39,987 nt of DNA. Source: Prosthecobacter sp. (GTDB lineage: Bacteria > Verrucomicrobiota > Verrucomicrobiia > Verrucomicrobiales > Verrucomicrobiaceae). The first letter of the stretch is position 1. Every line of letters starts with the position of its first letter. The position numbers were made by a program, and so were the translations under genes. Positions 23,843 to 39,987 of this stretch are shown here, piece by piece. The DNA lies in NCBI RefSeq assembly GCF_029946185.1, contig NZ_JAQSEA010000140.1, positions 1-39,987 of the forward strand, written 5' to 3'. The notes under the pieces are model-generated. The model had not been told where the DNA came from, ran no database searches, and saw nothing but the letters and a program-made list of their open reading frames with translations.

Positions 23843-23929
23843 ACGTGGATCTGATGCGGACGGCTTGATGCCACTGCCCATGGACGTCGATTTTGACCTG
23901 AACAAGTCTCGATACAACGCACCCACTTG

Positions 23930-25219
23930 ATGAAAAAACGTCCCCGCGCCACTGCGCATTCCTGGGTTTCAGCAGTCCTGATAGCATCCTTGCTCTCAAG
24001 TTGTTCCATGGAAAAACATCGCGCAAAAGTCGCCCGCGAAAATGCTTTCATCGAATACCGTCCGCTGCTGGATAGCAGCGGACGGTTGCGTCTAGCGGTC
24101 AAAGACAACATTGACATGAAAGGAGAGGTCACCACGGCCGGCTCTGAATATCTGGCCCGTAACCAGCCACCGGCGACTCGTGACGCCCCCTGCCTCGCGA
24201 TCGCGCGTGAGCGCAACGTGGTTATCGTTGGAAAGACGAACATGACGGAATTTGCGGTGACGGTCTCAGGCGAGAACAAACATTTTGGCACACCACGCAA
24301 TCGCTTCGATGGCCAGCACGAAGTGATTCCGGGAGGATCCTCCAGCGGCTCTGCTGTGGCGGTGAAGACGGGCATGGCGGACGTAGCCTTTGGCACCGAT
24401 ACGGCTGGGTCCATACGCGTTCCGGCGGCGTGCTGCGGTGTGTATGGATTAAAAACGACGTTCGGCCTCGTGCCCATCAAGGGGGTGTTTCCCATTTCAC
24501 CGAAGTATCTGGACACAGTGGGGCCACTGGCCAATGACATCGACCATTTGGTGCAGGGCATGGAGCTGCTGCAGCGCGGCTTCGCAGGGCTCTACGCCAA
24601 AGCACGCGCGGCGAAGCCTACGGCAAGGCAGATCAAAATAGGGAGGCTCTATCTCGATGGCACCGATGCAGCCATCGACAAAGCCATTGATGAAACCCTC
24701 GCAGCTAAACACTTTAGGGTGGTCCGCCTCTCCTCCGAATTCAAGAAGCAGTGGGAGCAGGCGCAGAAGGATGGCAAGGTGGTGGCCGCGGTGGATGCCT
24801 GGCTAAGTGACCGACAGTATGAGAACAAAAATGGCGTCAGTTTTTTGACGAAAGCGGTCTTTGCGCTGGGCGAGCTGCAGTACCACATAAGCTACGATGG
24901 TGCGCTCAAACGCCGCGCACAGTGGCAGCGCACACTGCGGGAGACATTCAAAGACGTGGATATCATCGCCGTACCGACTCTGCAAAGTCTGCCGCCCAAA
25001 TTTCCATTCTGGGGTTCTAACGTGTTGTTTGAACTGAAAGTGTTCGACATGCAGAACACGGTGGGTGTGAACTACGCTGGCAATCCTGCATTGGCGCTGC
25101 CCATCCTGCTGCCAGCTCACAAAAAAGCCATTCCGGCGACGAGTCTGCAACTGATCGGTCGCCCACGCAGTGAAGCGGAATTGCTGAATGCGGGCCGCCT
25201 GATCGAATCCAAAACCTGA
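23930..25219 (+). CDS. Amidase-signature lipoprotein
   Basis: A 429-residue enzyme of the amidase signature family (GatA/fatty-acid amide hydrolase type). The Ser-cisSer-Lys triad is visible: Lys58 in LAVKDNID, cis-Ser137 in PGGSSSGSA, nucleophile Ser161 in DTAGSIRVPAACCGVYG. The N-terminus has a signal peptide with LLSSC lipobox (Cys25), so unlike GatA it is a periplasmic or outer-membrane lipoprotein. It is shorter than GatA and lacks flanking gatB/gatC, so a role in tRNA amidation is unlikely; hydrolysis of amides or peptides in the periplasm is more probable. The ATG at 23930 is directly preceded by an in-frame TTG. The TPR protein gene starts 7 bp after its stop. Confidence 0.87.
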   Translation: MKKRPRATAHSWVSAVLIASLLSSCSMEKHRAKVARENAFIEYRPLLDSSGRLRLAVKDNIDMKGEVTTAGSEYLARNQPPATRDAPCLAIARERNVVIVGKTNMTEFAVTVSGENKHFGTPRNRFDGQHEVIPGGSSSGSAVAVKTGMADVAFGTDTAGSIRVPAACCGVYGLKTTFGLVPIKGVFPISPKYLDTVGPLANDIDHLVQGMELLQRGFAGLYAKARAAKPTARQIKIGRLYLDGTDAAIDKAIDETLAAKHFRVVRLSSEFKKQWEQAQKDGKVVAAVDAWLSDRQYENKNGVSFLTKAVFALGELQYHISYDGALKRRAQWQRTLRETFKDVDIIAVPTLQSLPPKFPFWGSNVLFELKVFDMQNTVGVNYAGNPALALPILLPAHKKAIPATSLQLIGRPRSEAELLNAGRLIESKT

Positions 25220-25226
25220 CCAAGCC

Positions 25227-26000
25227 ATGCAACTGCGATTACTCATTCCTATTTGGTGGGCCACCTTTTTGCTGTTGGGGGCAGGTGCCCTCTCCTGCCC
25301 GGCCCAGACCGCAGACGAACTCATGGGGAAGGGAGACAAACATGATCTCACCTTCGAGCCAAACCGGGCGCTGAACTATTATCTGAAGGCGGCAGAAACG
25401 GAGCCGAACAACGTACCGCTGCTGCTACGCATCGCACGGCAGTATCGATATCTGATGGCTGAGGCCAAGTCTCATGAAGAAAAGCTCAAGCTCGGCAATT
25501 CAGCGCTGGGATATGGACAGCGTGCGGCGAAGCTCGCGCCACTGAATTCCGAGGCGCAGCTTTCCCCCGCCATCACCTACGGGAAGATGCTGCCCTATGA
25601 AGGAAGTAAGGCGCAGGTACAACTCTCGCCGCTGATCAAAACCGCCGCCGACAAGGCGATCCGGCTTGATCCGAACAACGACACCGCCTGGCACGTGCTG
25701 GGCCGCTGGCACCAGGTGCTCGCCAAAGTGGGCGTGGTCAAGCGCGCTCTGGGCGGCCTCCTTTACGGCAAGCTTCCTGTCACCACCCAAGAAGCAGCGG
25801 CGAAGTGTTTCACCCAAGCCATTGCCATCAATCCCAGTCGCCTGCGGCACTATATTGAACTCGGCCATACCTACGCCCTGATGGGCAACAGCACTGAAGC
25901 AAAGCGCTTTCTGAAAAAGGGCCTGTCCATGCCAAACCACGAGTATGATGACCCTGAACTGAAAGTGAAAGGTCGCGAAACACTCGCAAAGCTGCCTTAA
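25227..26000 (+). CDS. Secreted TPR-repeat protein
   Basis: A 257-residue protein with a signal peptide (first ~27 residues, cleavage near PAQ|TAD) and helical repeats of TPR type: RALNYYLKAAETEPNNVPLL, YGQRAAKLAPLNSEA, ADKAIRLDPNNDTAWHVLGRW, CFTQAIAINPSRLRHYIELG. The pattern resembles the regulator-of-microtubule-dynamics (RMD1-3) TPR family, common in bacteria as exported proteins. It likely serves as a protein-binding scaffold in the periplasm. The 7-bp spacing after the amidase gene implies one transcript and possibly a shared task. Confidence 0.82.
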   Translation: MQLRLLIPIWWATFLLLGAGALSCPAQTADELMGKGDKHDLTFEPNRALNYYLKAAETEPNNVPLLLRIARQYRYLMAEAKSHEEKLKLGNSALGYGQRAAKLAPLNSEAQLSPAITYGKMLPYEGSKAQVQLSPLIKTAADKAIRLDPNNDTAWHVLGRWHQVLAKVGVVKRALGGLLYGKLPVTTQEAAAKCFTQAIAINPSRLRHYIELGHTYALMGNSTEAKRFLKKGLSMPNHEYDDPELKVKGRETLAKLP

Positions 26001-26956: not shown

Positions 26957-27058
26957 TAGCGCAATGGGGTGAAACCCTCACTTTTTTCACTCTATCAAGG
27001 CCAACGCCACCCGCAGTTCCGAATACTAGGCCGTAGCAAAGACGAAAAAACACACATC

Positions 27059-30000
27059 ATGGAAACAAACCGTAACGAAGGTGTCGCTATCATTGGCATG
27101 GGCTGCCGTTTTCCGGGAGGAATCAATGATGCTGAATCATTTTGGAAGCTTCTCATCGAAGGCCGCGATGCGGTCTCTGAGGTGCCCGCGAGCCGCTGGA
27201 ACGTCGAACGTTTTTATGATGCCGAACCCGGCGTGCTTGGCAAAACCATCGCCAAGCGTGGCGGCTTCATTGAAGGCATCGAGCAGTTTGATCCACAATT
27301 TTTCGGCATCTCCCCACGCGAAGCCCCCTACATTGACCCGCAGCAGCGCCTGCTGCTGGAGACGGCGTGGGAAGCGATCGAAGACGCAGGCCTGGTGCTG
27401 AATTTTGAGAAAGGTACGGACATCGGTGTGTTCGTCGGCATCTCGCACAATGACTACCAGGGCATCCAGCACACCTCCACGGACCGCAGCGGCATCAGTG
27501 CGCACACCCCAACCGGCAGCGCGCACAGCATCGCCGCCAATCGCATTTCCTATTGCCTCAATCTGCACGGACCCAGCCTGGCCATGGATACCGCGTGCTC
27601 ATCCGCACTGACGGCTGTGCATGTGGCCTGTGAGCATCTTTTGTCTGGTCGCTGTAAAACCGCCATGGCTGGCGGCGTGACGGTGATGATCAACCCGGAT
27701 GGCTTCATCGGCTTCTCGCAGGCGGGGATGCTGTCTCCTGATGGGAAATGCCAGGCGTTTGCGGCCGACGCCAATGGCTTTGTGCGAGGTGAAGGCGCCG
27801 GGATGGTGCTGCTGAAGCGGTTGGAAGATGCCATCAACGACGGCGATCCGATCCAAGGCGTGATCATTGGCACAGCCATCAATCAAGACGGCCATACCAA
27901 TGGCATCTCCCTGCCCAGCGGTGAGGCTCAGGCGCGACTCGTCTGTGATGCCTGTAATGATGCGCAGATTGATCCTTGGGAAGTCGGCTATGTTGAAGCC
28001 CATGGCACCGGCACCGCCGTGGGAGACCCCATTGAAGCCATTGCCCTTGCTGACGCCCTCTGCGCCGAACGCACTGCGGAAAACGCGCTCGTCATTGGCT
28101 CCGCCAAGACAAACCTAGGGCATCTGGAAACCGCCGCAGGTGTGGTGGGACTCATTAAGGCGGCACTGGTGCTACGGCATGGTCAGGTGCCTGCCAGTCT
28201 GCATTTTAAGGCACCCAGCCCGCACATCGATTTCGAAGCGCTGAAGCTGCGTGTGCCTACCGCAATGGAACCGCTGGCCGGGAAACCAGGCTCGCGGATT
28301 GTCGGCGTCAATTCATTTGGTTTTGGTGGTGCCAATGCCCACGTCATTCTCAAAGAGGCACCGCCGCAGCAGCAGCGGGCCTTGCTAAGCGCTGCCACGG
28401 ACCGCACCTGGCCGCTGATGATTTCTGCCCGTTCCGAAGCTGCGCTGCTGGCTAATGCCTGGCGCCTCAGCACCTGGCTGGAGGATCACTCACACATGAA
28501 TGGCAGCTCCCCCCTGCTGCCAGACATGACTTACATGCTCGGCGCACGCCGCAATCACCACTCGCACCGCCTCACGCTGAACGCACGCACCATGGCGGAG
28601 GCCGTGCAGGAACTCCATGCCTTCGCCACCGGCCAGCCAGGGCCCAAGCTGCGAACCACCTTCACGCCACGGCGTGAGCAACCCGCGCGCGTGGTTTTTG
28701 TGATGAGCGGTCAAGGCCCACAGTGGTGGGGCATGGGCCGCGAGCTCATGCAGCATGAATCCGTGTTCCGTGGCATGATCGAGGCCTGCGAGGCCGCCAT
28801 CAAGCCATGGGCGCGCTTCTCACTCATGGAAGAACTCGCTCGCGTGGAAGCGGAGTCAAAAATGCAGCGCACCGAAATCTCACAGGTCGCCATCTTTGCC
28901 ATGCAAATGGGACTCGCCGAATTGTGGAAGTCGTGGGGCGTTCGTCCTGCGGCAGTCATCGGCCACAGTGTGGGGGAAGTCGCTGCCGCATGCGTGGCGG
29001 GCATCCTCACTCTGGAAGAGGCAGCTAAGATCATCGTCTATCGCGGACGATTCATGGATGAATGTGATGTGCAGGATGGCACCATGCTTGCCGTCGGCAT
29101 GGCACCCGACGAAGCACGCGCCGTCATAGCCCGGCATGGCCGTGCAGTGAGCATCGCCGCATTTAATGGTCCACGTTCGCTGACCTTGTCAGGGCCGCGC
29201 CTTGAACTGGACGCCATCGCCAGCGAGTTGGAAGCCCAAGGCGTCTTTGCGCGCTTCCTCAAGGTGAGTCACCCCTTCCACCATGCACTGATGCAGCCCG
29301 CTGCAGATGCGCTCAAGCGGGTGCTGGGGGATCTCCAGCCGCAGACAGAAACAGTGCCATTTTTCAGCACGGTCACAGGCAAGCAAATGGACGGACAAGA
29401 CTGCACCGCAGATCATTGGTCTAACGGCGTGCGGCAGCCGGTGGAGTTTGCCGCCGCAGTGGGTGCCGTGGCGGACTTTGGCGCGGATGTGTGGCTGGAA
29501 CTCGGCTCCCACCCTGCCCTGGTGCGTTCCATTCAGGAATGCCTCGGCGACCGTGCCGCCAAGCAGTCCATCCTCGCTTCAGTGCGTCGGGAACGCGAGC
29601 ATGAGTCGCTGCTCGACACGGCTTTGGAGCTTCACCTCGCCGATGTCGCGCTGCAGTTTGCGTCAATGACCCCATCACGCCGCATCCTCACGCTGCCTAC
29701 GTACGCCTGGGACAAGAGCGTGTGGTGGCATGAGTCCCCCGAAGTGCGCGAAGGTCGTCTCTCACCAGGGGGCAGCGGGCTCCTCGGCGTGCGGATCTCA
29801 CGCGCAACACCCACCTGGGTGGCACGCCTTGATAACCGTCACATGGCATTCCTGAAAGATCATAAGGTCGAAAACCTCGTCGTGTTCCCGGCTGCAGGAT
29901 TTGTCGAGATGGTGCTCGAAGCCGGTGTGCAACTTTTTGAAGGCCGGCCGTTTGTGGTCGAAGATTTCGAGATCCGCAAGCCGCTTATCGTGCCTGATCC

Positions 30001-33000
30001 CCCCACCGGACTGCAACTGGAGCTGTCCTATGAGCCCAATGAGCGCACCTTTCTGATCCAGAGCCGCTTTGACAATACGTCTTCGTGGTCGGTGCATGTG
30101 GTGGGCTCCATGCGTGGTGAACGCACCGAGTCACCCTTTGCCACGTCAGCGTGGAATGACACGCCCGCCTCCACCCTGCCCGAGGTGAAAGTGGACACCT
30201 TCTATGAACACATGAATGACATGGGCCTCCGCTATGGCGAGGAGTTCCGCCCCATTCGTGAACTCACCGCCGGAGACGGCAAATCCACGGGCAGGGTTTC
30301 CTTGTCCGAAGCCATCGCCCATCGCTCCCCCGAGTATCCGCTGCATCCCGTTCTCTTTGACGGCGCGCTGCAGATTTTCTCCGCCGGAGCAGCCACAGTG
30401 GAAGGCCGCACTGCCGGCATGCGGCTCCCAGTGCGCTTCGCCAGAATCGTATTCCTGCGTTCCCCTGGAGCATCCAGCCTTGTTAAAGCTGGCGTCAAAG
30501 TGGCCAATGATGAACTGGTGGAAGGTGGTATCGACCTTTATGACGAAACCGGCAGCCCCTGTGTCCGCATCGACGGCTTCCGAGCCATCAGCGTGGAAGG
30601 TGCGCGCAAATCAAGCAAGACCGGCAAGGGCCGCGATCTCGTCTACAACGTCGCCTGGGAGCGCACACCCGCTGCTGCCAAGCCCGCGCCGCTCGCCCCT
30701 CTGCCCCTGAACCACCTGCAAACGGCAGCCCAGCGCGCGCTGGACTCCGCCATGGACATGCGCGGCCGCGATCATCTCCAGACCGCCAGCGCAGCGGTGG
30801 ATGACCTCACCGCCACCCATGTGTGCAGCGCCTTGAATGAAATGGGCGCGGAAGGCGTCTTCACCGCGGAATCTCTCGGCGTCGCGACACCCATGCGTCC
30901 CGCTTTCCATCAATTAATGGCAGATCTTGTTCATCGCGGTCTGTTGGTGCATGCAGAAAACGGCTATCAGCCCACCCCTGCCTTCCTCACCACGGCGTAC
31001 TCCACCGCAGAAGTCTTTCGTTCCACCCTCGCCGCGCACCCCGGACATCTTCCGGACGCGCTGCTCAGCGAAGCCGTCAGCGCAGAGCTCGGTCCCATCT
31101 TGCGTGGGGAGAAGGAAGCCGTGCAGGTGCTCTTCGGCGGAGTTCACTCCGATGTACTGGATCAGTTCTACGGCGACGGCCTTTTCTCCAGCACCTGGCT
31201 CTCAGCCATTGCCAGTGCAGTTGAGGAAGCCGCGCGTCATCTTCCCGAAGGGCGGGGCCTGCGCATCCTCGAGATCGGCGCTGGCACCGGCGGTCTGGCC
31301 TCACAACTACTGCCCCTCATTGAGCGCGGACTGCACACCTATGTGTTCAGTGACGTTTCCGCAGGATTCTTCCCTGGAGCCAAGCAGAAGCTGGCGGCCT
31401 TTCCTGAGGTCGAATACCAAATTTTTGATCTGGAAAAACGCGGCACGGAGCAGGAGCTTGAAGCCGAATCCTTTGACATCATTCTTGGCTCCAATGTGGT
31501 TCACGCCGTGAGCGATGTCCGCTCCGCACTGCGCAACATTCGTGATCTCCTCACCCCCGGCGGCACGCTGATGTTTGTGGATGTGGCCACGCCTCACCTC
31601 TGGCTGAACGCGGTCTTCGGCCTCACCAGCGGCTGGTGGCTCTTCACAGATCGTGATCTGCGTCCGCATCATCCGTTGCTCCATCGCCCGCAGTGGGAAA
31701 AGGTGCTGCACGAAGCAGGCTTCAGCGAGACAGCCTCCCTGCCCGGCTTGCTGCGCACGGACGGCGGCGAAAGCCTCATCGGCCTCTTCGCACGCAAAGA
31801 ATGGGTCGCACCGAAAGTCCCGACGCCAGATGCATTCGAAGCACCCGAAGAAAAGTCCTGGCTGGTGCTCGCGGATCGCGGCGGCCTCGGTGACCGGCTC
31901 GCCACAGAGCTGAAGCTCCACGGCATGCGCTGCCGAGTTGCCTATCGCGGCAGTTCGTTTGAGTCGGACGAGACCGATGTCTTCATGCTCCGCGCCGAAG
32001 TGCAGGAGGATTGGAACCGCCTGCTCGAAGCATGCGCTGAGGAAGCACCTGAGCGCTTTGTCTGCCTGTGGAATCTAGATGACAGCATGGCCGACGTGAA
32101 AGACGACGCCACCCAGCTCGGCACCGATGCCCTGTTCCACCTGACCAAGGCCCTCGAAAACCACAACCCCGCTACCAAGCGCCGCATTGATCTCATCACA
32201 CGCGGTGCCCAGGCCGTGGGCAGCCAGACCCAGTCCGTGGCCATGGCACAGTCAGCCGTCATCGGTTTGCTGCGCGTGGTGGCCAATGAGCACCCGCAAA
32301 TCACCTGCCGCAGCATTGATCTCCCCTCCCTCGCATCACCTGCGGACCCCCGCATGCTTTGGAGCGAGCTGCTGCAAAAAGATTCTGAACGCGAAGTCAC
32401 CTTCCGCGGCGATGGGCGCTACGTCCGTCGCGTGAGTCGTGGGCTGGCCTCGCGTGAGCAGATGCTTGATCATTCAGCGCCCCTGCGTCTGGAGTCCCGC
32501 GAGCGCGGCCTGCTGGATTCCCTGCGCCTGAGTTCTTTCGCCCTGCCCGAGTGTTCTGCTGGCGAAGTCATGATCGAAGTCAAAGCCGCCGGCATGAACT
32601 TCCGCGATGTGCTCAAAGCACTCGCACTCTATCCGGCGGAAACGGCGGACGCCCGCATCTTTGGGGACGAAGTGGCCGGCATCGTCAGAGCCGTCGGCAC
32701 TGACGTCACTCATGTGAAGCCCGGCGACAGCGTGTTTGGCCTCGCCGTCTTCGGTCTTGCCACACATACCATGGCACGTGGTGGCGATGTTCGCCTCATG
32801 CCTGAGTCCCTGTCATTTGAAGCCGCGGCAACTCTCCCAGTGGTCTTCATGACCGCATGGCACGCGCTCAAAACCGTGGCGCAGATGAAGCCGGAAGAAT
32901 GCATCCTCGTCCATGCTGGCGCAGGCGGGGTCGGCATGGCCGCCATCCAGATCGCTCATCATTTGGGCGCGGTGGTGATCGCTTCGGCTGGCAGCCCGGC

Positions 33001-34777
33001 CAAACGCAAGCTGCTGAAAGACTTGGGCGTGCGTCATGTCATTGATTCACGTCGTGCGGACTTTGCAGAAGCCGTCATGGACCTCACCAACGGCAAAGGC
33101 GTGGATGTAGTTCTAAACTCTCTCGCCGCAGAAGCCATCCCCATGGGCCTTTCCTGCCTGGCTCAGTTCGGCCGCTTCATCGAGATCGGCAAACGCGACA
33201 TCTACCAAAACTCGCGCATCCCATTGTGGTCACTGCGGAAAAATGCCTCGTTCCATGTCGTGGCCATGGATGCCATCTTCAGCGGCGATGAAGCGCAGAC
33301 GCGCCAGATCCTTCAAACCATCGCCGATCTGGTGGATCAGGGCTCCCTGCATCCGCTGCCGTTCCGTTCCTTCCCTGCCTGCCGTATCGACGCGGCATTC
33401 CGTCTCATGGCTCAGGGCAAGCACACCGGCAAGGTCATCGTTTCTTTCCCAGATCCTTTTGTGCCGCGCCGTGGCGAGCCGCTCGCTTCTGGCTTCGCCG
33501 TCCAGACAGAGGGTGCCTACCTGATCACCGGAGCCTTCGGTGGCTTTGGCAAAGTGCTGGCCGAATGGCTGACCGACTGCGGTGCCCGTCATCTTGTGCT
33601 CACCAGCCGCAAGGGTGCCTCCACACCGGATGCCAAAGCCTTTGTGGAAAAACTGCGCGGGCGTGGTGTTAAAGTTCAAGTCGTATGCGCAGACGTTGGC
33701 TCCGCCGCCGATGTGAAGGAGCTGTTCAAGGAGATCGCGACCGCCGGACACGCGCTCAAGGGTGTGTTCCATCTGGCGATGGTGATTGATGACGCCCCCA
33801 TGGCAGCACTCAATCGTGAACGCATGCACAGCGTCCTGGCACCCAAGGCCTATGGTGCATGGCTGCTTCATGAAGTCACCCGCAACATGAAGCTGGACTG
33901 CTTTGTGATGTTCTCCTCCGTATCCAGCATCTTTGGTAATCCGGCCCAGGCCAACTACGCTGCGGCCAATGCTTTCCAGGATGCGCTGGCACATCACCGC
34001 CAGGCCGTCGGTCTTCCTGCGCTGGTCATCAACTGGGGTGCGCTCGGTGGGGAAGGCTACGTGGCGCGCAATGAGCGTGTGGCGGAGTTCCTCGCCCGTC
34101 AGGGCACCACGGCGCTGTCTCCGCGCGAAGTCGTGGGGCTGTTGGAAATGTTCCTCGCCACCGGTGCCACGCAAGCCATGGCCCTGCGGGTGGACTGGGC
34201 CAAATGGCGGCAGTCGTTCCGCAGCAGCCAGGATAGCCCGCTGCTGGAGCGTGTCTTCGCCGCAGGCGTCGAAGGCGCGGAAACCAGTGGCACCAAGAGC
34301 GACTGGCGCCGCAAGATCGAGTCCGCCGCCCCCGAAGAGCGCAGCGAAATTGTCGGCCACGCAGTGCGTGATGTGGTGGGCGGTGTTCTACGCGTGAAGC
34401 CTGAGGGCTTGCGCGATGACCAGCCGCTCACCGATCTGGGACTTGATTCCTTAATGGCCGTCGAGATCGAAAACTCGATCGAAAGCGTCATCGGGGTGGC
34501 ATTGCCACCGGCCAGTCTGATGCGTGCGCGCACCATCGGCCAGATTGTGACGCTGATCGCCGAACATGTCGGTGGCACCGCCGCAGCCCCGGCAGCGGCA
34601 GCAGCGCCTGTGCAGACAGCGGAACCGGTGGATGCCGGGACCGTGGATCTGGAGGCGCTATCAGACGAGGATATCGACCTACTGCTGGAAGATGAAGCGG
34701 TGCATGAAGACCAGGCCCCGCAGTGGAACCCCGAGCCCGAAACACCCGCATGTCCCAAGACACTCGATCGCGTTTAA
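27059..34777 (+). CDS. Highly reducing type I polyketide synthase (KS-AT-DH-cMT-ER-KR-ACP)
   Basis: A 2572-residue single-module synthase, probably iterative. KS: Cys180 in DTACSSA, His315 in EAHGTGT, His355 in NLGHLE, all intact. AT: Ser637 in GHSVGE and HPFH (His741), a malonyl-type motif. DH: His935 in HKVENLVVFP (usual Gly replaced by Asn939) and Asp1101 in LFDGALQ. C-methyltransferase: EIGAGTGG at ~1405. ER: LVHAGAGGVGMAA at ~1950. KR: GAFGGFG at ~2157, IDD (B-type-like), Tyr2300 in QANYAAAN. ACP: Ser2464 in LGLDSL. An Ala/Pro linker and acidic tail LEALSDEDIDLLLEDE follow. I start at the ATG at 27059; the frame extends to a GTG at 26969. No thioesterase is present; a condensation protein gene overlaps the end. 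Product: a reduced C-methylated acyl chain, structure unknown. Confidence 0.93.
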   Translation: METNRNEGVAIIGMGCRFPGGINDAESFWKLLIEGRDAVSEVPASRWNVERFYDAEPGVLGKTIAKRGGFIEGIEQFDPQFFGISPREAPYIDPQQRLLLETAWEAIEDAGLVLNFEKGTDIGVFVGISHNDYQGIQHTSTDRSGISAHTPTGSAHSIAANRISYCLNLHGPSLAMDTACSSALTAVHVACEHLLSGRCKTAMAGGVTVMINPDGFIGFSQAGMLSPDGKCQAFAADANGFVRGEGAGMVLLKRLEDAINDGDPIQGVIIGTAINQDGHTNGISLPSGEAQARLVCDACNDAQIDPWEVGYVEAHGTGTAVGDPIEAIALADALCAERTAENALVIGSAKTNLGHLETAAGVVGLIKAALVLRHGQVPASLHFKAPSPHIDFEALKLRVPTAMEPLAGKPGSRIVGVNSFGFGGANAHVILKEAPPQQQRALLSAATDRTWPLMISARSEAALLANAWRLSTWLEDHSHMNGSSPLLPDMTYMLGARRNHHSHRLTLNARTMAEAVQELHAFATGQPGPKLRTTFTPRREQPARVVFVMSGQGPQWWGMGRELMQHESVFRGMIEACEAAIKPWARFSLMEELARVEAESKMQRTEISQVAIFAMQMGLAELWKSWGVRPAAVIGHSVGEVAAACVAGILTLEEAAKIIVYRGRFMDECDVQDGTMLAVGMAPDEARAVIARHGRAVSIAAFNGPRSLTLSGPRLELDAIASELEAQGVFARFLKVSHPFHHALMQPAADALKRVLGDLQPQTETVPFFSTVTGKQMDGQDCTADHWSNGVRQPVEFAAAVGAVADFGADVWLELGSHPALVRSIQECLGDRAAKQSILASVRREREHESLLDTALELHLADVALQFASMTPSRRILTLPTYAWDKSVWWHESPEVREGRLSPGGSGLLGVRISRATPTWVARLDNRHMAFLKDHKVENLVVFPAAGFVEMVLEAGVQLFEGRPFVVEDFEIRKPLIVPDPPTGLQLELSYEPNERTFLIQSRFDNTSSWSVHVVGSMRGERTESPFATSAWNDTPASTLPEVKVDTFYEHMNDMGLRYGEEFRPIRELTAGDGKSTGRVSLSEAIAHRSPEYPLHPVLFDGALQIFSAGAATVEGRTAGMRLPVRFARIVFLRSPGASSLVKAGVKVANDELVEGGIDLYDETGSPCVRIDGFRAISVEGARKSSKTGKGRDLVYNVAWERTPAAAKPAPLAPLPLNHLQTAAQRALDSAMDMRGRDHLQTASAAVDDLTATHVCSALNEMGAEGVFTAESLGVATPMRPAFHQLMADLVHRGLLVHAENGYQPTPAFLTTAYSTAEVFRSTLAAHPGHLPDALLSEAVSAELGPILRGEKEAVQVLFGGVHSDVLDQFYGDGLFSSTWLSAIASAVEEAARHLPEGRGLRILEIGAGTGGLASQLLPLIERGLHTYVFSDVSAGFFPGAKQKLAAFPEVEYQIFDLEKRGTEQELEAESFDIILGSNVVHAVSDVRSALRNIRDLLTPGGTLMFVDVATPHLWLNAVFGLTSGWWLFTDRDLRPHHPLLHRPQWEKVLHEAGFSETASLPGLLRTDGGESLIGLFARKEWVAPKVPTPDAFEAPEEKSWLVLADRGGLGDRLATELKLHGMRCRVAYRGSSFESDETDVFMLRAEVQEDWNRLLEACAEEAPERFVCLWNLDDSMADVKDDATQLGTDALFHLTKALENHNPATKRRIDLITRGAQAVGSQTQSVAMAQSAVIGLLRVVANEHPQITCRSIDLPSLASPADPRMLWSELLQKDSEREVTFRGDGRYVRRVSRGLASREQMLDHSAPLRLESRERGLLDSLRLSSFALPECSAGEVMIEVKAAGMNFRDVLKALALYPAETADARIFGDEVAGIVRAVGTDVTHVKPGDSVFGLAVFGLATHTMARGGDVRLMPESLSFEAAATLPVVFMTAWHALKTVAQMKPEECILVHAGAGGVGMAAIQIAHHLGAVVIASAGSPAKRKLLKDLGVRHVIDSRRADFAEAVMDLTNGKGVDVVLNSLAAEAIPMGLSCLAQFGRFIEIGKRDIYQNSRIPLWSLRKNASFHVVAMDAIFSGDEAQTRQILQTIADLVDQGSLHPLPFRSFPACRIDAAFRLMAQGKHTGKVIVSFPDPFVPRRGEPLASGFAVQTEGAYLITGAFGGFGKVLAEWLTDCGARHLVLTSRKGASTPDAKAFVEKLRGRGVKVQVVCADVGSAADVKELFKEIATAGHALKGVFHLAMVIDDAPMAALNRERMHSVLAPKAYGAWLLHEVTRNMKLDCFVMFSSVSSIFGNPAQANYAAANAFQDALAHHRQAVGLPALVINWGALGGEGYVARNERVAEFLARQGTTALSPREVVGLLEMFLATGATQAMALRVDWAKWRQSFRSSQDSPLLERVFAAGVEGAETSGTKSDWRRKIESAAPEERSEIVGHAVRDVVGGVLRVKPEGLRDDQPLTDLGLDSLMAVEIENSIESVIGVALPPASLMRARTIGQIVTLIAEHVGGTAAAPAAAAAPVQTAEPVDAGTVDLEALSDEDIDLLLEDEAVHEDQAPQWNPEPETPACPKTLDRV

Positions 34778-36108
34778 AACAGTGGCTGGAAAGCGGAGAG
34801 GCCCGTCTGCAGCCGCTAACATTCCCCCAGCAGGAATTGTGGCAGGCATCTCCGGTGCCTGCCGGAGATGTGGCGAACCATATCTGCGCCTTGATCAATG
34901 TGCGAGGGCCTATCACACCGCAAGGGTGTGAGGCGGCAGTGCAGAAGGTCTCGGAACGGCAGGAGGTGTTTCGTCTCTCCTTCCTGCCAGGCAAGGAGCA
35001 GCCCATGCAGCTCATCAGAAGGAGCAGCCGTCAAATACTGCAGTTCCGTGAGCTTTCACCTGAGCAGCAGGAGCCTGAAGCAGTGGAAGAACTGGCGCAG
35101 GAGATTTTCCGCAAGCCCTTCAACATGGTCGGCGGCCCGCTCTTTCGAACGGAAGTATTGCGGCGCAGTGCCGACGACCACGTGCTGGTGGTGGCCATCC
35201 ACCACGCCATTGCCGACGGCTGGACCGTGGGGGTATTCGTTCAGGATCTCTTTGCAGCCTACATGCAGGAGCTGCGCGGCATCCCTGGCGGGCTGCCGCC
35301 GGTTCCCCTTTCCTACTCAGATTGGGGCGCAGCCGAACGCGCTTACTGGCAGCCTGCGCTGCTGGGCGAGCGCAGCATTTTTTGGAAAGAACGTCTGGCC
35401 AACATCACGCCGCTGTGGTCCCCGCCCACGGGCCCTGCAGCACTCTCAGGCGAACGTCGGCGCTGGGTCTTCTCCGCCCCTGCCGACGTGGGCCGGGCGG
35501 TGCGTGAACTGGCCAAGCGTAATGGAGCCACACTCTTCAGCACCCTGCTGGCCGCGTTTCAGGTGACGCTCTCCAAATGGACGGGCAAAGATGACATCCT
35601 CGTGGGCACACCCGTCGCCAATCGCAACAAGCAGGCGGTGCGTGAAACCATGGGCTACTGCGCCGGCATCGTTCCCTTGCGGGGTCACATCGACCGGGAT
35701 CGCACCTTCTCCGAACGTTTGCGCAAAGTCCATGAAGACACGGTGGACTCCTTCGCCAATGCGATGCCTTTTTCCGAACTGGTAAAAGGGTTGGGAATGA
35801 CGCCCGCCCCCGGGTGCAACCCTATTTTCCAGGTGCGCTTCGCGCTGCAAAATCATCCCGTGCCAGACATTTCCGTGAATGGCATGTCCCTTCAGTTGCG
35901 GATGCGCTCCACTGGCACCCCACGCTTTGACCTCGCTTGTGAAGTCACCGAAGAAGGCGATGCCTTCGAAGTAGTCTGGCTGTGCCGACCGGGCATGTTT
36001 TCCGGGGAAGACATCCACCACCTGCACCGCATGTACCTCGGGGTCCTGACGAACGTTTGCAGTTCGCCTGAAATCCTGACCGCCGCACTCATGACGACCA
36101 CCCTGTGA
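34750..36108 (+). CDS. Stand-alone NRPS-type condensation domain protein
   Basis: A 452-residue protein consisting of one condensation domain. The active motif is HHAIADG (His151-His152-...-Asp156-Gly157). Other C-domain blocks are LTFPQQELW near the start, PFNMVGGPLFR, DILVGTPVANRN, MGYCAGIVPLR, and NPIFQVRFALQNHP. The length is full, with no adenylation or carrier domain attached. Its ATG lies 28 bp inside the PKS gene in another frame, so the two are tightly coupled. It most likely takes the chain from the PKS carrier domain and joins it to an amine or alcohol, doing the release step, as the terminal CON domain does in fungal LovB-type synthases. The acceptor is unknown. Confidence 0.9.
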   Translation: MSQDTRSRLKQWLESGEARLQPLTFPQQELWQASPVPAGDVANHICALINVRGPITPQGCEAAVQKVSERQEVFRLSFLPGKEQPMQLIRRSSRQILQFRELSPEQQEPEAVEELAQEIFRKPFNMVGGPLFRTEVLRRSADDHVLVVAIHHAIADGWTVGVFVQDLFAAYMQELRGIPGGLPPVPLSYSDWGAAERAYWQPALLGERSIFWKERLANITPLWSPPTGPAALSGERRRWVFSAPADVGRAVRELAKRNGATLFSTLLAAFQVTLSKWTGKDDILVGTPVANRNKQAVRETMGYCAGIVPLRGHIDRDRTFSERLRKVHEDTVDSFANAMPFSELVKGLGMTPAPGCNPIFQVRFALQNHPVPDISVNGMSLQLRMRSTGTPRFDLACEVTEEGDAFEVVWLCRPGMFSGEDIHHLHRMYLGVLTNVCSSPEILTAALMTTTL

Positions 36109-36127
36109 GCATCATGGACAAACTATC

Positions 36128-36436
36128 ATGCACATGATCCAACTGCTACTGCCGCTCTACACGCGCGATCAGCCGATGACGCCGGCTGATGTTCTGCATG
36201 CCATGGTCAAAGCGGAACTGACGCGATACTTTGGCCGTTGCGAGGCCCACACCCGTTCACCTGCAGGAGGCCGGTGGCTGGAAGAAGGTCTGGGCAGACG
36301 CGATGAAATCGTCATCTACGAAGTCATGGCCCGCCTGCTCGATGCCCGATGGTGGAACTGGTACCAAGAAGTGCTTGAGACCCGATTTCGCCAGCAGCAG
36401 GTGATCATTCGCGTGCTGCCGCTGATTCATTTGTGA
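36128..36436 (+). CDS. Small conserved protein after the PKS/condensation pair
   Basis: A 102-residue cytoplasmic protein starting 19 bp after the condensation gene, so probably in the same operon. It begins with IQLLLPLYTRDQ, has a helix (ADVLHAMVKAELTRYFG), a central GGRWLEEG turn, a conserved DEIVIYEVMARLLDARWWNWYQE block and ends with a strand (QQQVIIRVLPLIHL). I have seen similar small proteins in many proteobacteria without a known function; the alpha/beta pattern suits a ferredoxin-like dimer. It may be a pathway helper or simply a neighbour. Confidence 0.72.
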   Translation: MHMIQLLLPLYTRDQPMTPADVLHAMVKAELTRYFGRCEAHTRSPAGGRWLEEGLGRRDEIVIYEVMARLLDARWWNWYQEVLETRFRQQQVIIRVLPLIHL

Positions 36437-36633
36437 TCATCAGATGCACGTCACAAAAACCACGTTTTTATACAACCAGAGTGGATGACCTGAGCGTTCT
36501 CTCCGCAGTTAATCCAGCTCCCATTACCGGACCTATTTGTGATCGCGGCAGGGGCAGGTTTTCTGCGGTCACTCGCAGGTGTGAATGCTGCCAGCCTCGT
36601 CCGAAAATACCCCAACCCCCAGTTTCCCCTAAC

Positions 36634-37059
36634 ATGTCTGCACCTGCCCCAACAAGCTCTCCCATTTCCCGAGTGCGACTCGCAGTCGTAGATGATCACG
36701 CCATCATCCGCGGTGTGTTTGTGACGCTCGTAGAGGACGCGCCGGAACTGAACATGGCGTGGACGGCCTCCTCTCTGGCCGAAGCAGCGGATAAAATCCA
36801 ATTGGATATTCCCGATATTCTGGTGATCGACGTAGGTCTGCCCGATGGCAATGGTTTTGACTTCACCAAGGAATTGCTAACCCGCGTACCGGGATTGCCG
36901 GTTTTGATTGTGTCAGCTGATACCGAGTCCAGTTATGTGGAACGTGCTGCGGCCAGCGGTGCTAAAGGATTCATTGCCAAAGAAGCGTCACTTGAACTGC
37001 TCGTGGAGGCCGTTAACACCATCCAACAGGGCGGCCAATGGTTCCACCCAGCCGGGTAA
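36634..37059 (+). CDS. Receiver-only response regulator (NarL-type receiver)
   Basis: A 141-residue protein with one receiver domain: acidic pair Asp20-Asp21 in VVDDH, phosphorylation site Asp66 in LVIDVGLPDGNG, switch Ser94 in IVSAD and Lys116 in IAKEAS. The sequence up to GGQWFHPAG is that of a NarL/FixJ receiver, but it stops exactly where the linker to a LuxR-type DNA-binding domain would begin. No helix-turn-helix is visible in any frame after the stop, so it is either a natural single-domain regulator or a truncated one. The frame is open upstream to 36433, but the ATG at 36634 gives the family start. No partner kinase is adjacent; the kinase/regulator pair at the window end is 2 kb away. 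Confidence 0.85.
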   Translation: MSAPAPTSSPISRVRLAVVDDHAIIRGVFVTLVEDAPELNMAWTASSLAEAADKIQLDIPDILVIDVGLPDGNGFDFTKELLTRVPGLPVLIVSADTESSYVERAAASGAKGFIAKEASLELLVEAVNTIQQGGQWFHPAG

Positions 37060-37107
37060 ACGCGGCAAACACAACCGATTGGGCGTTCGGCGGCGATTCA
37101 TTTATTG

Positions 37108-37305
37108 ATGGAAACCGATCTCACAGTTCTTGCACACCGTTCGACCTTGGTTGAATCGATGCACCTCACCCTTCAAAAGGCCGTGGAGCTTAAGGGTCTT
37201 CATCTGAATGAGCTGGGCATTGAGAACGTGGCCGATACCGAAGCCATACGCAGCTCTGTTCACCCAGGGTGCCTGGAATGGAATTTGGACATCAGATTTA
37301 ACTGA
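37108..37305 (+). CDS. Possible small hypothetical protein
   Basis: An open frame of 65 codons from the ATG at 37108 (TTG at 37105). It reads as a soluble, helix-rich peptide (LVESMHLTLQKAVELKGLHLNELG) with no signal or membrane segment. I recognise no family. It lies 48 bp after the receiver gene and 25 bp before the next small gene, so the arrangement is operon-like, but the frame could be chance. Confidence 0.35.
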   Translation: METDLTVLAHRSTLVESMHLTLQKAVELKGLHLNELGIENVADTEAIRSSVHPGCLEWNLDIRFN

Positions 37306-37330
37306 CGAGAAACCTTACCCCATACACACC

Positions 37331-37594
37331 ATGAGCCCGCATTTAATCCCCAACTACCGCCACACCACGGAACTGGCAGCCGATGCCATGATCAGTGAAG
37401 GCGGTGCGATCCGACAACCTACCATGAGAGATGCTCAAGCCGTCTATGCTCGTCTTCACACGCCCTGTGGCGGATTCTCAGCCGCACTGCGTGAATGGGT
37501 GCAGAACCCCGCCGCCATGTTCTTGACAGGCCTCGCGACCGGACTCGCACTCGCGCTAATCAATCAAAAAATCCATAGGGACACGCAGGCATGA
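37331..37594 (+). CDS. Small protein with C-terminal membrane helix
   Basis: An 87-residue protein. The N-terminal part is polar (NYRHTTELAADAMISEGGAIRQ, RDAQAVYARLHTPCGGFS), followed by LREWVQNPAAMFLTGLATGLALALI, a membrane helix near the C-terminus, and a short polar end. 'WVQNP-AA-hydrophobic' resembles the tail anchor of ElaB/YqjD-type proteins and of the small protein at 21485, but no named family is certain. The start has an A/C-rich leader (ACCCCATACACACC) and no Shine-Dalgarno site, like other stress genes here. Confidence 0.62.
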   Translation: MSPHLIPNYRHTTELAADAMISEGGAIRQPTMRDAQAVYARLHTPCGGFSAALREWVQNPAAMFLTGLATGLALALINQKIHRDTQA

Positions 37595-37675
37595 CTGGTT
37601 GGAGGAGAAGGAGAGTAAACTCCGGCGTCAAAGCAAGAACCTGTGGCACAAAGAAAAAGGTAGAACCTAATATGC

Positions 37676-37702
37676 AAAAAACCCGCCCATCGCTGGGCGG
37701 GT
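37676..37702 (-). terminator. Rho-independent terminator of the DUF4142 gene
   Basis: A perfect 9-bp stem (ACCCGCCCA with TGGGCGGGT), 4-nt loop, then six T's on the minus strand, 34 bp past the stop of the DUF4142 gene. The plus-strand side lacks a T-tract. Confidence 0.9.
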
Positions 37703-37736
37703 CAAGTTGCATTAAGGAATGAACCGTTGACCGGGA

Positions 37737-38258
37737 CTACTTGGCAGCCATTTCTTTGATCTTGTTCAGATGCGTACGCAGAACGGGCAGCGTTGCACTG
37801 GCAAAGGATTTCACCTCACCGTCTGCTGCATTTTTCTCCGCATCCTCGAAGGTGGAGATGGATTCCTTATGGGAACTCTCCAAGTGGTCGAGAAATGCTT
37901 TGTCGAAGTCCTTGCCGCTTTCCTTTTCCAAGTCTTTGAACATCCCGGCGGAATCAGGATTGATGACTGCGGAAAGTTCGACCTTCTTGGCCTCAGCGAG
38001 TGCGGTGAGCTCTGCATTCGCCTTGGTGTGATCTGTAACCAGCATCGTGGCGAAATTTTTGACATCGGCGCGTTCAGCTTTCTGAGTTCCGAGAGTTGCT
38101 ATCTTCACTTCAGCCATTCCTGCCGCGCCGGCCTGCTTGACGAACTTTTCATCTGTGGAATTCAAGCTGGACTTTGTGTCTGCCGCGCAAAGCATGGTTG
38201 AAAAATTACCTGCGGCGATGGCAAGCAGAATGGCGAAGGTGACGGGGTTTGTTTTCAT
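37737..38258 (-). CDS. Secreted DUF4142 ferritin-like protein
   Basis: A 173-residue protein with a signal peptide (MKTNPVTFAILLAIAAGNFSTMLCA, cleavage near CAA|DTK) and the helical DUF4142 domain: STDEKFVKQAGAAGMAEVKIATLGTQKA, VKNFATMLVTDHTKANAEL, FDKAFLDHLESSHKESISTFEDAEK, LPVLRTHLNKIKEMA. These are hallmark positions (DH, H, H) of the family, which has a ferritin-like four-helix fold; many members are periplasmic and induced by stress. Metal binding is likely but unproven. Single-gene unit with its own terminator; the start has the A/C-rich leader ACACACAACACACCAAACC about 10 nt before the ATG. Confidence 0.9.
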   Translation of the reverse strand: MKTNPVTFAILLAIAAGNFSTMLCAADTKSSLNSTDEKFVKQAGAAGMAEVKIATLGTQKAERADVKNFATMLVTDHTKANAELTALAEAKKVELSAVINPDSAGMFKDLEKESGKDFDKAFLDHLESSHKESISTFEDAEKNAADGEVKSFASATLPVLRTHLNKIKEMAAK

Positions 38259-38379
38259 GGCATTAAGTGGTTTGGTGTGTTGTGTGTGCGAAGCTTTTAG
38301 TTAGCAGCTCACGCAACCAAGTCATCGGCACGAACTTTCCGTCCGGATGTGTTGCTGATAACACCATTCCTTCCCGCCC

Positions 38380-38430
38380 AAAATGCCAACGAGCTGTTTC
38401 ACCGGGAAAACCGCCATTATTTGGCATTTT
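38380..38430. repeat. 10-bp inverted repeat with 31-nt loop
   Basis: AAAATGCCAA and TTGGCATTTT are exact complements; on the plus strand the right arm runs into TTTTTT. No gene ends upstream on that strand, so if it is a terminator it would end a small RNA; it could also be an operator pair for the DUF4142 gene. Confidence 0.4.
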
Positions 38431-38483
38431 TTAGCGAGGTCCCTGATGCGCAACTCAGGTGGAAAGACCATGTCTTCCAAGAC

Positions 38484-38519
38484 AAAAAAAGCCCTGGCCA
38501 ACATATCATGCCAGCCAGG
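38484..38519 (-). terminator. Probable terminator after the response regulator gene
   Basis: CCTGGC and GCCAGG pair around a 15-nt loop that itself can fold (TGGC/GCCA); on the minus strand GC and seven T's follow. It lies about 145 bp past the regulator stop, a long but reasonable 3' end. Confidence 0.55.
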
Positions 38520-38665
38520 ACCAAGGGCACTTCGGTTACTCAGTCCATCGCTGGTCGAGCTGCTTTTCATGCCTCATCCGTATATCGCCGCAGTCATGAA
38601 TACGGATGTGTATCGCACACAAAAACACAACCACCTAAATCGAGAGGACCGCATTCGGCTAGCGG

Positions 38666-39388
38666 CTACAAATTGGCCTCGCGATTGACCCATTCGACAG
38701 CGGCGCGCACGAGTTCAGGGGCGGTCTTCAACTGGAGCTTCTCCTTGATATGCGCACGATGAGTTTCGACGGTCTTAACACTGAGGAAGAGCGTGCGGGC
38801 GATTTCGCGTGTGCCTCGGCCTTCCCCAACTGCGCGGAAGACTTCGATCTCGCGGTCGCTAAGCTGTTCAATGGTCGAGGTTCCGACGTTGGTAGCTCGG
38901 CCATTGAGGAAGGTGTCAAGCAGCCGCCCGCCAATGGCCTCGCTGAGATAGAGGCCGCCGCCGAGTACGCGACGGATGGCTTCGATGACTTTTTCTGATG
39001 GGGCCGCCTTCATCACATACCCCCGGGCACCGGCGCGCAGCGCCCGCTCGGCGTAAACGCTCTCGTCATGCATGGAAACCATGAGAGCGGGCAGCTGGGG
39101 GTGCAGGGCACGGATGGACTTCATCAGTTCAATGCCGTTGGTGCCCTGGATGGAGATGTCTAGAACGGCAATGTCCGGCTTGAGTTGTTCCACAGCGCCG
39201 AGGGCCTCGGCGGCGGAGCAAATTTCTCCGCAGACGTGTAGATCAACCTCATGATTGATAAGTTGCGTGATGCCATTGCGAAAAATGGGATGGTCATCCA
39301 CGATCAACACCCGTCGCTTGACCTGCTTCACAGCGGGCGGCGTGGCGTTGGCAATGTCGTTGGAAGATTTGGAAGGGGTTTTCGCCAT
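38666..39388 (-). CDS. NarL/FixJ-type response regulator
   Basis: A 240-residue two-domain regulator. Receiver: Asp31-Asp32 in IVDDHP, phosphorylation site Asp77 in AVLDISI, Ser in MVSMHD and Lys127 in VMKAAP. Output: LuxR-type helix-turn-helix at ~175-235 (LSDREIEVFRAVGEGRGTRE, then IARTLFLSVKTVETHRAHI and KEKLQLKT). It binds DNA as a dimer after phosphorylation; target genes are unknown. The start is the ATG at 39388, just after the kinase gene (53-bp gap), with about 25 N-terminal disordered residues. The next gene upstream on the same strand encodes the matching kinase, so this is one two-component operon. Confidence 0.93.
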   Translation of the reverse strand: MAKTPSKSSNDIANATPPAVKQVKRRVLIVDDHPIFRNGITQLINHEVDLHVCGEICSAAEALGAVEQLKPDIAVLDISIQGTNGIELMKSIRALHPQLPALMVSMHDESVYAERALRAGARGYVMKAAPSEKVIEAIRRVLGGGLYLSEAIGGRLLDTFLNGRATNVGTSTIEQLSDREIEVFRAVGEGRGTREIARTLFLSVKTVETHRAHIKEKLQLKTAPELVRAAVEWVNREANL

Positions 39389-39441
39389 ATAAGCAAGATG
39401 GAGTTCGGGACCAGAGCAGGGATATTGCAAAAGGACAGAGA

Positions 39442-39987
39442 TCAGGCCTTGGCGGGCAAGCTGCACCGCACCACGGTACCGCCGGTGGGACGGGCTGTAA
39501 TCGAGAGGGTGGCTCCAATGGAGCTGGCACGGCAGCGCATCAACTTCAGTCCTATTCCGGCGGACTGGTCGTGGTCTGGCGGCAGGCCGACACCGTCATC
39601 AGTGATGGAAAGGATGATGTCCTGCTGCCGGACACCCAAATGGACGTTGATATGGCGGGCTTGTGAGTGGCGGGAGGCGTTAACCAATGCCTCCAAGACG
39701 ATGCGGTATAGATGCATGGCGACATCATTGTCCCGGACAGGGATGGCTTCGTGACAAAACAGCGCGCACCGGACACGTCCCGGCACGTCATAACTGCTGA
39801 CGAGATTTCGCAGGGAGGCAACCAGACCACTTGCATCCACATCCATGGGATGGAGCGCCCTGGCGACGTCTCGTGCATCATTCGTGGCGCTGCGGATGAG
39901 GGTGGCGATCTCCTTGAGCTTGCCAGCCATTTCAGGGTCGGATCTCTGGCCGCAGACATCACTCAGAGTGGTGGCTATCATGACGAC
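39442..39987 (-). CDS. NarX/DegS-type sensor histidine kinase, C-terminal part (cut by window edge)
   Basis: About 181 residues are visible, open to the right edge. They cover the end of the HisKA_3 dimerisation region (IATLIRSATNDARDVARALHP, GLVASLRNLV) and the HATPase_c domain: N-box LYRIVLEALVNASRHSQ, Asp-Gly-Val-Gly in ITDDGVGLP, and a GIGLKLMRCRA lid/G2 region, ending GGTVVRCSLPAKA. The phospho-accepting His and the sensor part lie outside the window. This family pairs with NarL-type regulators, which fits the next gene. An in-frame ATG at 39981 is internal and not the start. Confidence 0.9.
   Translation of the reverse strand, partial: VVMIATTLSDVCGQRSDPEMAGKLKEIATLIRSATNDARDVARALHPMDVDASGLVASLRNLVSSYDVPGRVRCALFCHEAIPVRDNDVAMHLYRIVLEALVNASRHSQARHINVHLGVRQQDIILSITDDGVGLPPDHDQSAGIGLKLMRCRASSIGATLSITARPTGGTVVRCSLPAKA

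Follow-up and report, generated by a model that had tools for sequence, protein, structure and literature searches.

In mycobacteria, MAS and Pks2 are reducing single-module polyketide synthases (PKSs) that occur with PapA releasing enzymes of the condensation (C) superfamily and with LppX, a carrier of LolA-like fold; MAS has no C-methyltransferase (cMT) domain. In the zeamine system of Serratia plymuthica, the free-standing C protein Zmn19 is proposed to terminate the synthesis by amide formation (PMC3547906; this and the other PMC sources are cited from their available parts). The fatty acid amide synthase OaaC, also a free-standing C protein, joins acyl-ACP to amines in vitro (preprint PMC13142362). 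In aryl polyene clusters, the Lol homologues ApeL and ApeN are proposed to carry aryl polyene lipids (PMC8253772). The pair of genes considered here, a single-module PKS followed by a separate C protein, stands in a 39,987-base contig of Prosthecobacter sp. (C140, analysed whole and called the window below), part of a draft genome of 6.19 Mb in 317 contigs that is 95.9% complete. Pairs of this kind form a family conserved in Verrucomicrobiota, the gene set of which probably builds a methyl-branched polyketide and joins it to another molecule by the separate C protein. The window holds a reduced version of that set. No description of the pair, the operon, or a product was recognised in searches of open-licence PMC papers, in agreement with an earlier examination of the DNA (the sequence-only reading), which knew of no product for such a pair.

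The PKS frame is open and complete up to its stop, with 2572 residues from the first ATG (2602 from an alternative GTG at 26969), and overlaps the C gene by 28 bp when both are read from their ATG starts. Pfam matches follow each other as KS, AT, DH, cMT, a probably structural SDR part, ER, KR, and ACP (ketoacyl-synt, E 4.5e-97; Acyl_transf_1, 8.5e-72; PKS_DH_N, 8.4e-19; PS-DH, 7.5e-29; Methyltransf_12, 1.8e-17; ADH_zinc_N, 2.4e-24; KR, 7.6e-67; PP-binding, 3.1e-13). Matches of this strength, here and in the C protein, are not due to chance. The order KS-AT-DH-cMT-ER-KR-ACP, first read from motifs, is thus borne out by Pfam as well. All the residues cited with it (C180, H315, H355, S637, H935, D1101, and S2464) are present and are invariant in the three large PKSs of the genome, and the ER, which had been called intact, does contain HAGAGGVG. 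The DH motif is HxxxN (N939) and not HxxxG, a detail absent from the sequence-only reading. The SHPFHH motif of the AT suggests malonyl-CoA, by the usual rule. Among 50 complete PKSs of relatives, the KS, AT, ER, KR, and ACP motifs are each found in 46–49 (the DH is outside this count) and the G-rich cMT motif in 38, so that methylation may differ between lineages. The acidic tail of the PKS is conserved: a pattern search recovers a similar one in 38 of 40 PKS ends, and inspection by eye adds a 39th (L032). At its own start the C protein has a conserved stretch that is helical in the model, and the two are a possible docking pair.

The C domain is complete as a protein of its own, with its catalytic motif (HHAIADG, 35200–35220) and with no A, PCP, or TE domain attached. 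The Condensation match (E 5.6e-68) covers residues 19–441 of 451 and positions 4–439 of the 456 of the PF00668 profile, which upholds the earlier description of the next gene as a full, separate condensation protein. Of the 64 distinct C genes, 62 retain HHxxxDG; L035 has QHAIADG instead, and L055 has a broken frame. The model (pLDDT 88.3) has the C-domain fold, with matches that include Txo2, TomBC, and the free-standing SgcC5 (TM 0.78). By sequence score the protein is nearest to bacterial C domains of non-ribosomal peptide synthetases (NRPSs), with 169 bits for Txo2, 88 for the C domain of fungal psoA, and 63 for LovB. Members of the C family score at least 588 bits (one partial match, 422), against at most 278 bits for NRPS C domains. 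A polycyclic tetramate macrolactam (PTM) synthase, with KS-AT-DH-KR-ACP-C-A-PCP-TE in one protein, is rejected, since the PKS stops after the ACP and C stands alone. An uncharacterised clade of monomodular KSs without MIBiG relatives, with Verrucomicrobia among its members, was reported in 2023 (PMC10308959). The window pair may belong to it, although the architectures given in the available part are PTM-like and no such pair or operon is described there. The available part of PMC13291983 contains nothing on Verrucomicrobia.

A profile made from the alignment of two close C proteins (two peptide patterns) was run over 84,980 species genomes. It returned 41 loci, all titled Verrucomicrobiota or its members, including Brevifollis gellanilyticus NBRC 108608 and Chthoniobacter flavus Ellin428; as the patterns come from two close proteins, no absence outside Verrucomicrobiota is claimed. 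With 36 further stretches from relatives, partly on the same contigs, the map contains 65 distinct loci, the window and the paralogous locus on contig C262 of the same genome included. The loci are mostly contigs of metagenome-assembled genomes from two sources, merged by sequence under different rules for the neighbour counts (65) and the motif counts (64); L102 and L021, for instance, are the same contig. Neighbours were counted by tblastn with few queries, so that diverged genes can escape, and the denominators are the loci with room. The PKS adjoins C on its upstream side in 62 of 63 loci (exception, L061) and a desaturase-family gene follows C in 57 of 59 (exceptions, the window and L033). 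A LolD-like ATPase, an FtsX/LolC-E-like permease, and a LolA-like carrier are all present in 39/45, and an AsnB-like gene is divergent upstream in 31/45. The window, with 3.9 kb after C, was counted for the desaturase and AsnB but not for the exporter. Brevifollis gellanilyticus NBRC 108608 (L041) has the PKS, C, the desaturase-family gene, and all three export genes, so that an isolated curiosity becomes a conserved gene set found also in a named strain. The Verrucomicrobiota placement of the pair is hereby confirmed; neither the conserved operon around it nor the reduced state of the window copy was part of the sequence-only reading. At E 1e-90, members of the C family are present in 32 of the 68 Verrucomicrobiaceae genomes, in 43/288 of the order sample, and in 17/384 of the class sample. 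A search of the phylum at E 1e-30 gave C matches in 47 of 387 genomes, with more than 680 bits in only five; the remaining matches (at most 278 bits, in frames of at least 606 aa) are as expected of NRPS C domains. Two copies per genome are found also in G427 (L103, L104) and G404 (L108, L109).

In the draft genome, PF00698 has four matches, three in PKS-sized frames (C140, C262, and C252) and one in a 341-aa frame. Each of the three large PKSs carries one KS, and the two C domains found with PF00668 are both in stand-alone proteins. No further PKS-type module occurs among the PF00698 and PF00109 matches, and a modular cis-AT assembly line is rejected on that ground. Further modules elsewhere in the genome had been named as what would speak against a single fully reducing and probably iterative module; none being found, the PKS still appears, from its sequence, to be probably iterative. 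The paralogous pair on C262 (PKS 74% and C 69% identical to the window copy) is followed by genes for an FA_desaturase-family protein, an ABC ATPase, a MacB/FtsX permease, and a LolA_like protein, and has upstream a divergent asparagine-synthase-like gene cut by the contig end. The PKS of C252 is 40% identical to that of the window. It is a third single-module PKS (L010 1352–10168), with the same domain order and a NAD_binding_4 (thioester-reductase-type) end. Upstream of it stands a divergent MacB/FtsX-type permease gene that the contig end truncates.

The proteins encoded around the complete pairs fit known models to different degrees. The ABC ATPase has LolD as its best NCBIfam model (243.5 bits, under the cut-off of 307.75). 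The LolA-like protein has a Pfam LolA_like match and its models, made from L021 (pLDDT 85.6 for the best, 82.0 for the second, and 57–59 for three of five), show a fold of the LolA superfamily, with Z 23–28 to the four nearest structures and about 9–15 to LolA/LolB. The AsnB-like protein is over the TIGR01536 cut-off (400.9 vs. 267.1). The desaturase-family protein has weak matches, far under the cut-off, to the model of the guanitoxin arginine hydroxylase (40.5 bits) and to DesA (23.2 bits), so that it may act as a desaturase or as a hydroxylase.

The preferred reading, on balance a probable one, is that an iterative PKS builds a chain, that C moves it to an amine or alcohol, and that the resulting lipid is exported to the outer membrane. 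It is drawn from the intact motifs, from the lack of other modules or other C domains in the draft genome, from the conserved neighbours and the model and fold matches of their products, and from the low dN/dS of the window PKS and C, with Zmn19 (PMC3547906), OaaC (PMC13142362), and the aryl polyene Lol homologues (PMC8253772) as precedents. The PKS would be iterative, fully reducing, and C-methylating, and would lengthen an acyl chain on its single ACP, with malonyl-CoA as the probable extender. The C protein, perhaps docked on the PKS tail, would then acylate a free amine or hydroxyl with the ACP-bound chain, a transfer that would release an amide or ester lipid. In the complete operons, the desaturase-family enzyme would desaturate or hydroxylate a component and the AsnB-like enzyme would amidate one, while the LolD-like ATPase, the FtsX-type permease, and the LolA-like carrier would bring the lipid across the periplasm and deliver it to the outer membrane. 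The copy in the window would be a reduced paralogue that still makes the chain and may borrow the export and tailoring proteins of the C262 copy.

The precedents resemble the gene set in parts. Zmn18 and Zmn19 show the same succession of a PKS module, directly a free-standing C, and then ABC transporter genes, but Zmn18 is an extension module (KS, AT, KR, and ACP) that ends a hybrid NRPS/PKS, Zmn19 has a PHxxxDG motif, and no desaturase or LolA-like gene is described in the available part (PMC3547906). OaaC is likewise a stand-alone C protein acting on acyl-ACP; its donor, however, is a discrete fatty acyl-ACP and not a PKS, it forms a clade of its own near starter C domains, and its motif is (D/H)HxxxDS, the Asp being followed most often by S or A (PMC13142362). 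The aryl polyene clusters likewise have LolA-like genes for transport and assemble their lipid on acyl carrier proteins, whereas they use separate enzymes like those of fatty acid synthase and an RND-family transporter, with no C protein in the available gene table (PMC8253772). MAS is the best full-length PDB match of the window PKS (990 bits), but the tree places the MAS KS among the modular ones. LppX matches the LolA-like model weakly (TMq 0.28) and is not among the 50 fold matches listed. The mycobacterial MAS/PapA/LppX sets and the present ones are alike in their parts, homology of the sets being another matter that the comparison does not demonstrate.

Several observations weigh against the preferred reading. 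No export genes are present in the 3.9 kb of the window contig after C, and the exporter is incomplete in 6 of the 45 loci with room. The permease reaches 79.2 bits with ADOP, 54.8 with MacB, and 52.9 with lolCE, all far under the cut-off (362.45 for lolCE), and the exporter might instead act on lipoproteins or in self-protection. The HHxxxDG of the window C protein is typical of carrier-protein-dependent C domains, while OaaC-type domains have G after the Asp in only 17% (PMC13142362). No product, acceptor, or chain length is on record for the pair.

More tentatively, many Verrucomicrobiota could make an undescribed outer-membrane lipid of this kind, a one-module methyl-branched polyketide released by C onto an amine or hydroxyl head and delivered by a Lol-type system of its own. 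If so, it would be a Gram-negative counterpart, independently reached, of the mycobacterial PKS-PapA-LppX surface lipid systems. On this gene set one could test whether a polyketide lipid has Lol-like genes of its own for delivery, and whether a stand-alone C domain off-loads a probably iterative bacterial PKS.

Alternatively, though this seems unlikely to us, the product is a small, antibiotic-like polyketide amide that is secreted or serves as a signal, and the ABC and LolA proteins act in self-protection or as an aid to secretion. The patchy distribution (32/68, 43/288, and 17/384, as above) would agree with such a product, as would the response-regulator genes beside the window copy, the adjoining amidase, which could process an amide, and a permease nearer to the ADOP and MacB models than to lolCE. 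On the other hand, the carrier, with its predicted LolA-type fold, is conserved with the pair (39/45) and the ATPase is nearest to the LolD model, which fits lipid delivery better.

The window copy is colinear with L106 and L102 through the PKS and C. After C it jumps to a 102-aa gene that stands after LolA in L102 and L106, about 3.6–3.7 kb being skipped. The ends of the junction map from 36116/36135 in the window to 13154/16798 in L106 and from 36108/36129 to 13331/17027 in L102. A short remnant at 36108–36135 resembles, by eye, the start of the relatives' desaturase. AsnB was not found upstream in the tblastn map. Elsewhere in the genome, LolA of this family was found only on C262, the other missing genes not having been searched genome-wide. 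The copy could thus be a remnant losing function after loss of the operon, with the working system on C262: relative to L102 and L106 it lacks AsnB and four downstream genes, and the complete C262 copy has the only LolA of the family found. We regard this as quite improbable, since the window PKS and C are open and motif-complete and appear to be under purifying selection, with dN/dS of 0.085–0.102 (dS 0.80–1.07) against L102 and L106. Relative-rate tests with L103 as outgroup give no significant acceleration (chi2 1.31 and 2.82 for the PKS, 0.23 and 0.18 for C). With dS already at 0.8–1.1, a recent loss of constraint on this copy would not show. Either the window copy is functional, or the gene loss is recent, or the junction results from faulty assembly.

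The sequence-only reading had compared the pair with the fungal highly reducing PKSs (HR-PKSs) of LovB type. LovB and MokA share the domain order up to the ACP and the CON/C fold (TM 0.79 for the CON of MokA), but their CON is fused to the PKS whereas C is here a separate gene; the ER of LovB is inactive. For the cMT, the alignment to LovB reaches 98 bits. The KS alone scores 479 bits with CurL, 429 with PikA1, 410 with MAS, 330 with LovB, and 329 with psoA; the DEBS KS is also above LovB. The top row, 7zma (722.6 bits), is the sum of two trans-AT KS domains (about 361 + 372), so that the comparison is limited to single-KS rows. KS similarity by itself was not taken as a guide to ancestry. A first KS tree (48 rows, with long-branch warnings) gave a mixed group with fungal KSs at 95/93. 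In a second tree (12 of 30 Verrucomicrobiota KSs chosen by hand, one more trans-AT row, and two fungal KSs), the 12 form one clade (100/99) inside a weakly supported mixed group (80/93) with the fungal KSs and several bacterial KSs. Approximately unbiased (AU) tests on this tree reject neither the joint clade with fungal KSs (p 0.353) nor that with modular KSs (p 0.257). Of the plasmid KSs that are the sole KS site of their record, five fall in the mixed group (L063, L064, L066, L070, and L071) and two outside it (L062 and L065). The order KS-AT-DH-MT-ER-KR-ACP occurs also in the Caballeronia PKS L066 and is therefore not diagnostic of a fungal HR-PKS. Of the fungal likeness, the domain order stands, while the KS and C both score higher against bacterial sequences; the comparison is thus partly supported, for the shared order but not, on these alignments and trees, for a shared ancestry. 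That the pair is a bacterial relative of the LovB type with CON kept as a separate protein, its role like that of the CON of LovB, is very improbable, the identical domain order, the mixed KS group with its unrejected joint clade, and the cMT and psoA scores being outweighed by a KS nearer to CurL, PikA1, MAS, and DEBS than to LovB, a C protein far nearer to Txo2 than to LovB, and two trees that nest neither KS group in the other.

Two Deinococcus plasmids (L063 and L070) carry a large reducing PKS with one KS beside a phosphopantetheinyl transferase gene and NRPS-type genes. The PKS of L063 with its annotated "condensation domain-containing protein" was considered as a second pair and rejected, because an overlapping frame runs on, by eye, from the C region into adenylation-like sequence and the sister L070 has an annotated adenylation protein next; L063 therefore looks like a PKS-NRPS, not a PKS-C pair.

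Table 1. Features of the PKS-C locus and its neighbours in the window (positions in the window; aa, residues of the PKS)
Feature	Position	Strand	Basis or remark
Amidase, recurrent upstream neighbour	23927..25219	+	PF01425, E 1.7e-58; upstream in 11/28 loci with room
TPR protein, recurrent upstream neighbour	25227..26000	+	TPR models; upstream in 17/28 loci with room
Single-module PKS	27059..34777	+	ORF, Pfam, alignment with C262 and C252 PKSs; 2572 aa from ATG 27059
KS domain and KS C-terminal extension, aa 7–481	27077..28501	+	PF00109, PF02801, PF16197; Cys180/His315/His355
AT domain, aa 546–863	28694..29647	+	PF00698; Ser637 in GHSVGE; SHPFHH motif
DH domain, aa 908–1184	29780..30610	+	PF21089, PF14765; His935/Asp1101
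C-methyltransferase domain, aa 1396–1556	31244..31726	+	PF13489, PF08242; EIGAGTGG
Probable structural (psi) KR part, aa 1629–1757	31943..32329	+	PF21394; putative role
ER domain, aa 1834–2128	32558..33442	+	PF08240, PF00107, PF13602; HAGAGGVG intact
KR domain, aa 2152–2329	33512..34045	+	PF08659; GAFGGFG and NYAAAN motifs
ACP, aa 2435–2500	34361..34558	+	PF00550; Ser2464 in GLDSL
Conserved acidic C-terminal PKS tail VDLEALSDEDIDLLL, aa 2529–2543	34643..34687	+	Pattern search across PKS ends
Stand-alone condensation protein, 452 aa	34750..36108	+	PF00668; ATG 34750 (GTG 34723 also possible)
Apparent deletion junction	36109..36134	+	Desaturase-ABC-permease-LolA genes stand here in relatives
Conserved hypothetical protein, 102 aa	36128..36436	+	tblastn map; stands after LolA in L102 and L106; no Pfam match

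Two recurrent neighbours in the operons of relatives have no Pfam match at E 0.001 (L043 15114–16220, c8, 368 aa; and L043 732–2084, c18, 450 aa). Broken frames occur in L055 2288–11328 (Chthoniobacter flavus Ellin428; PKS and C), in L052 9998–11303 (C), and in L056 2303–9989 (PKS), and are either pseudogenes or errors of draft sequence. In the window, the 102-aa gene is followed (36433–39987) by a response regulator, a DUF4142 gene, a LuxR-type response regulator, and, at the contig end, a histidine-kinase-type ATPase domain.

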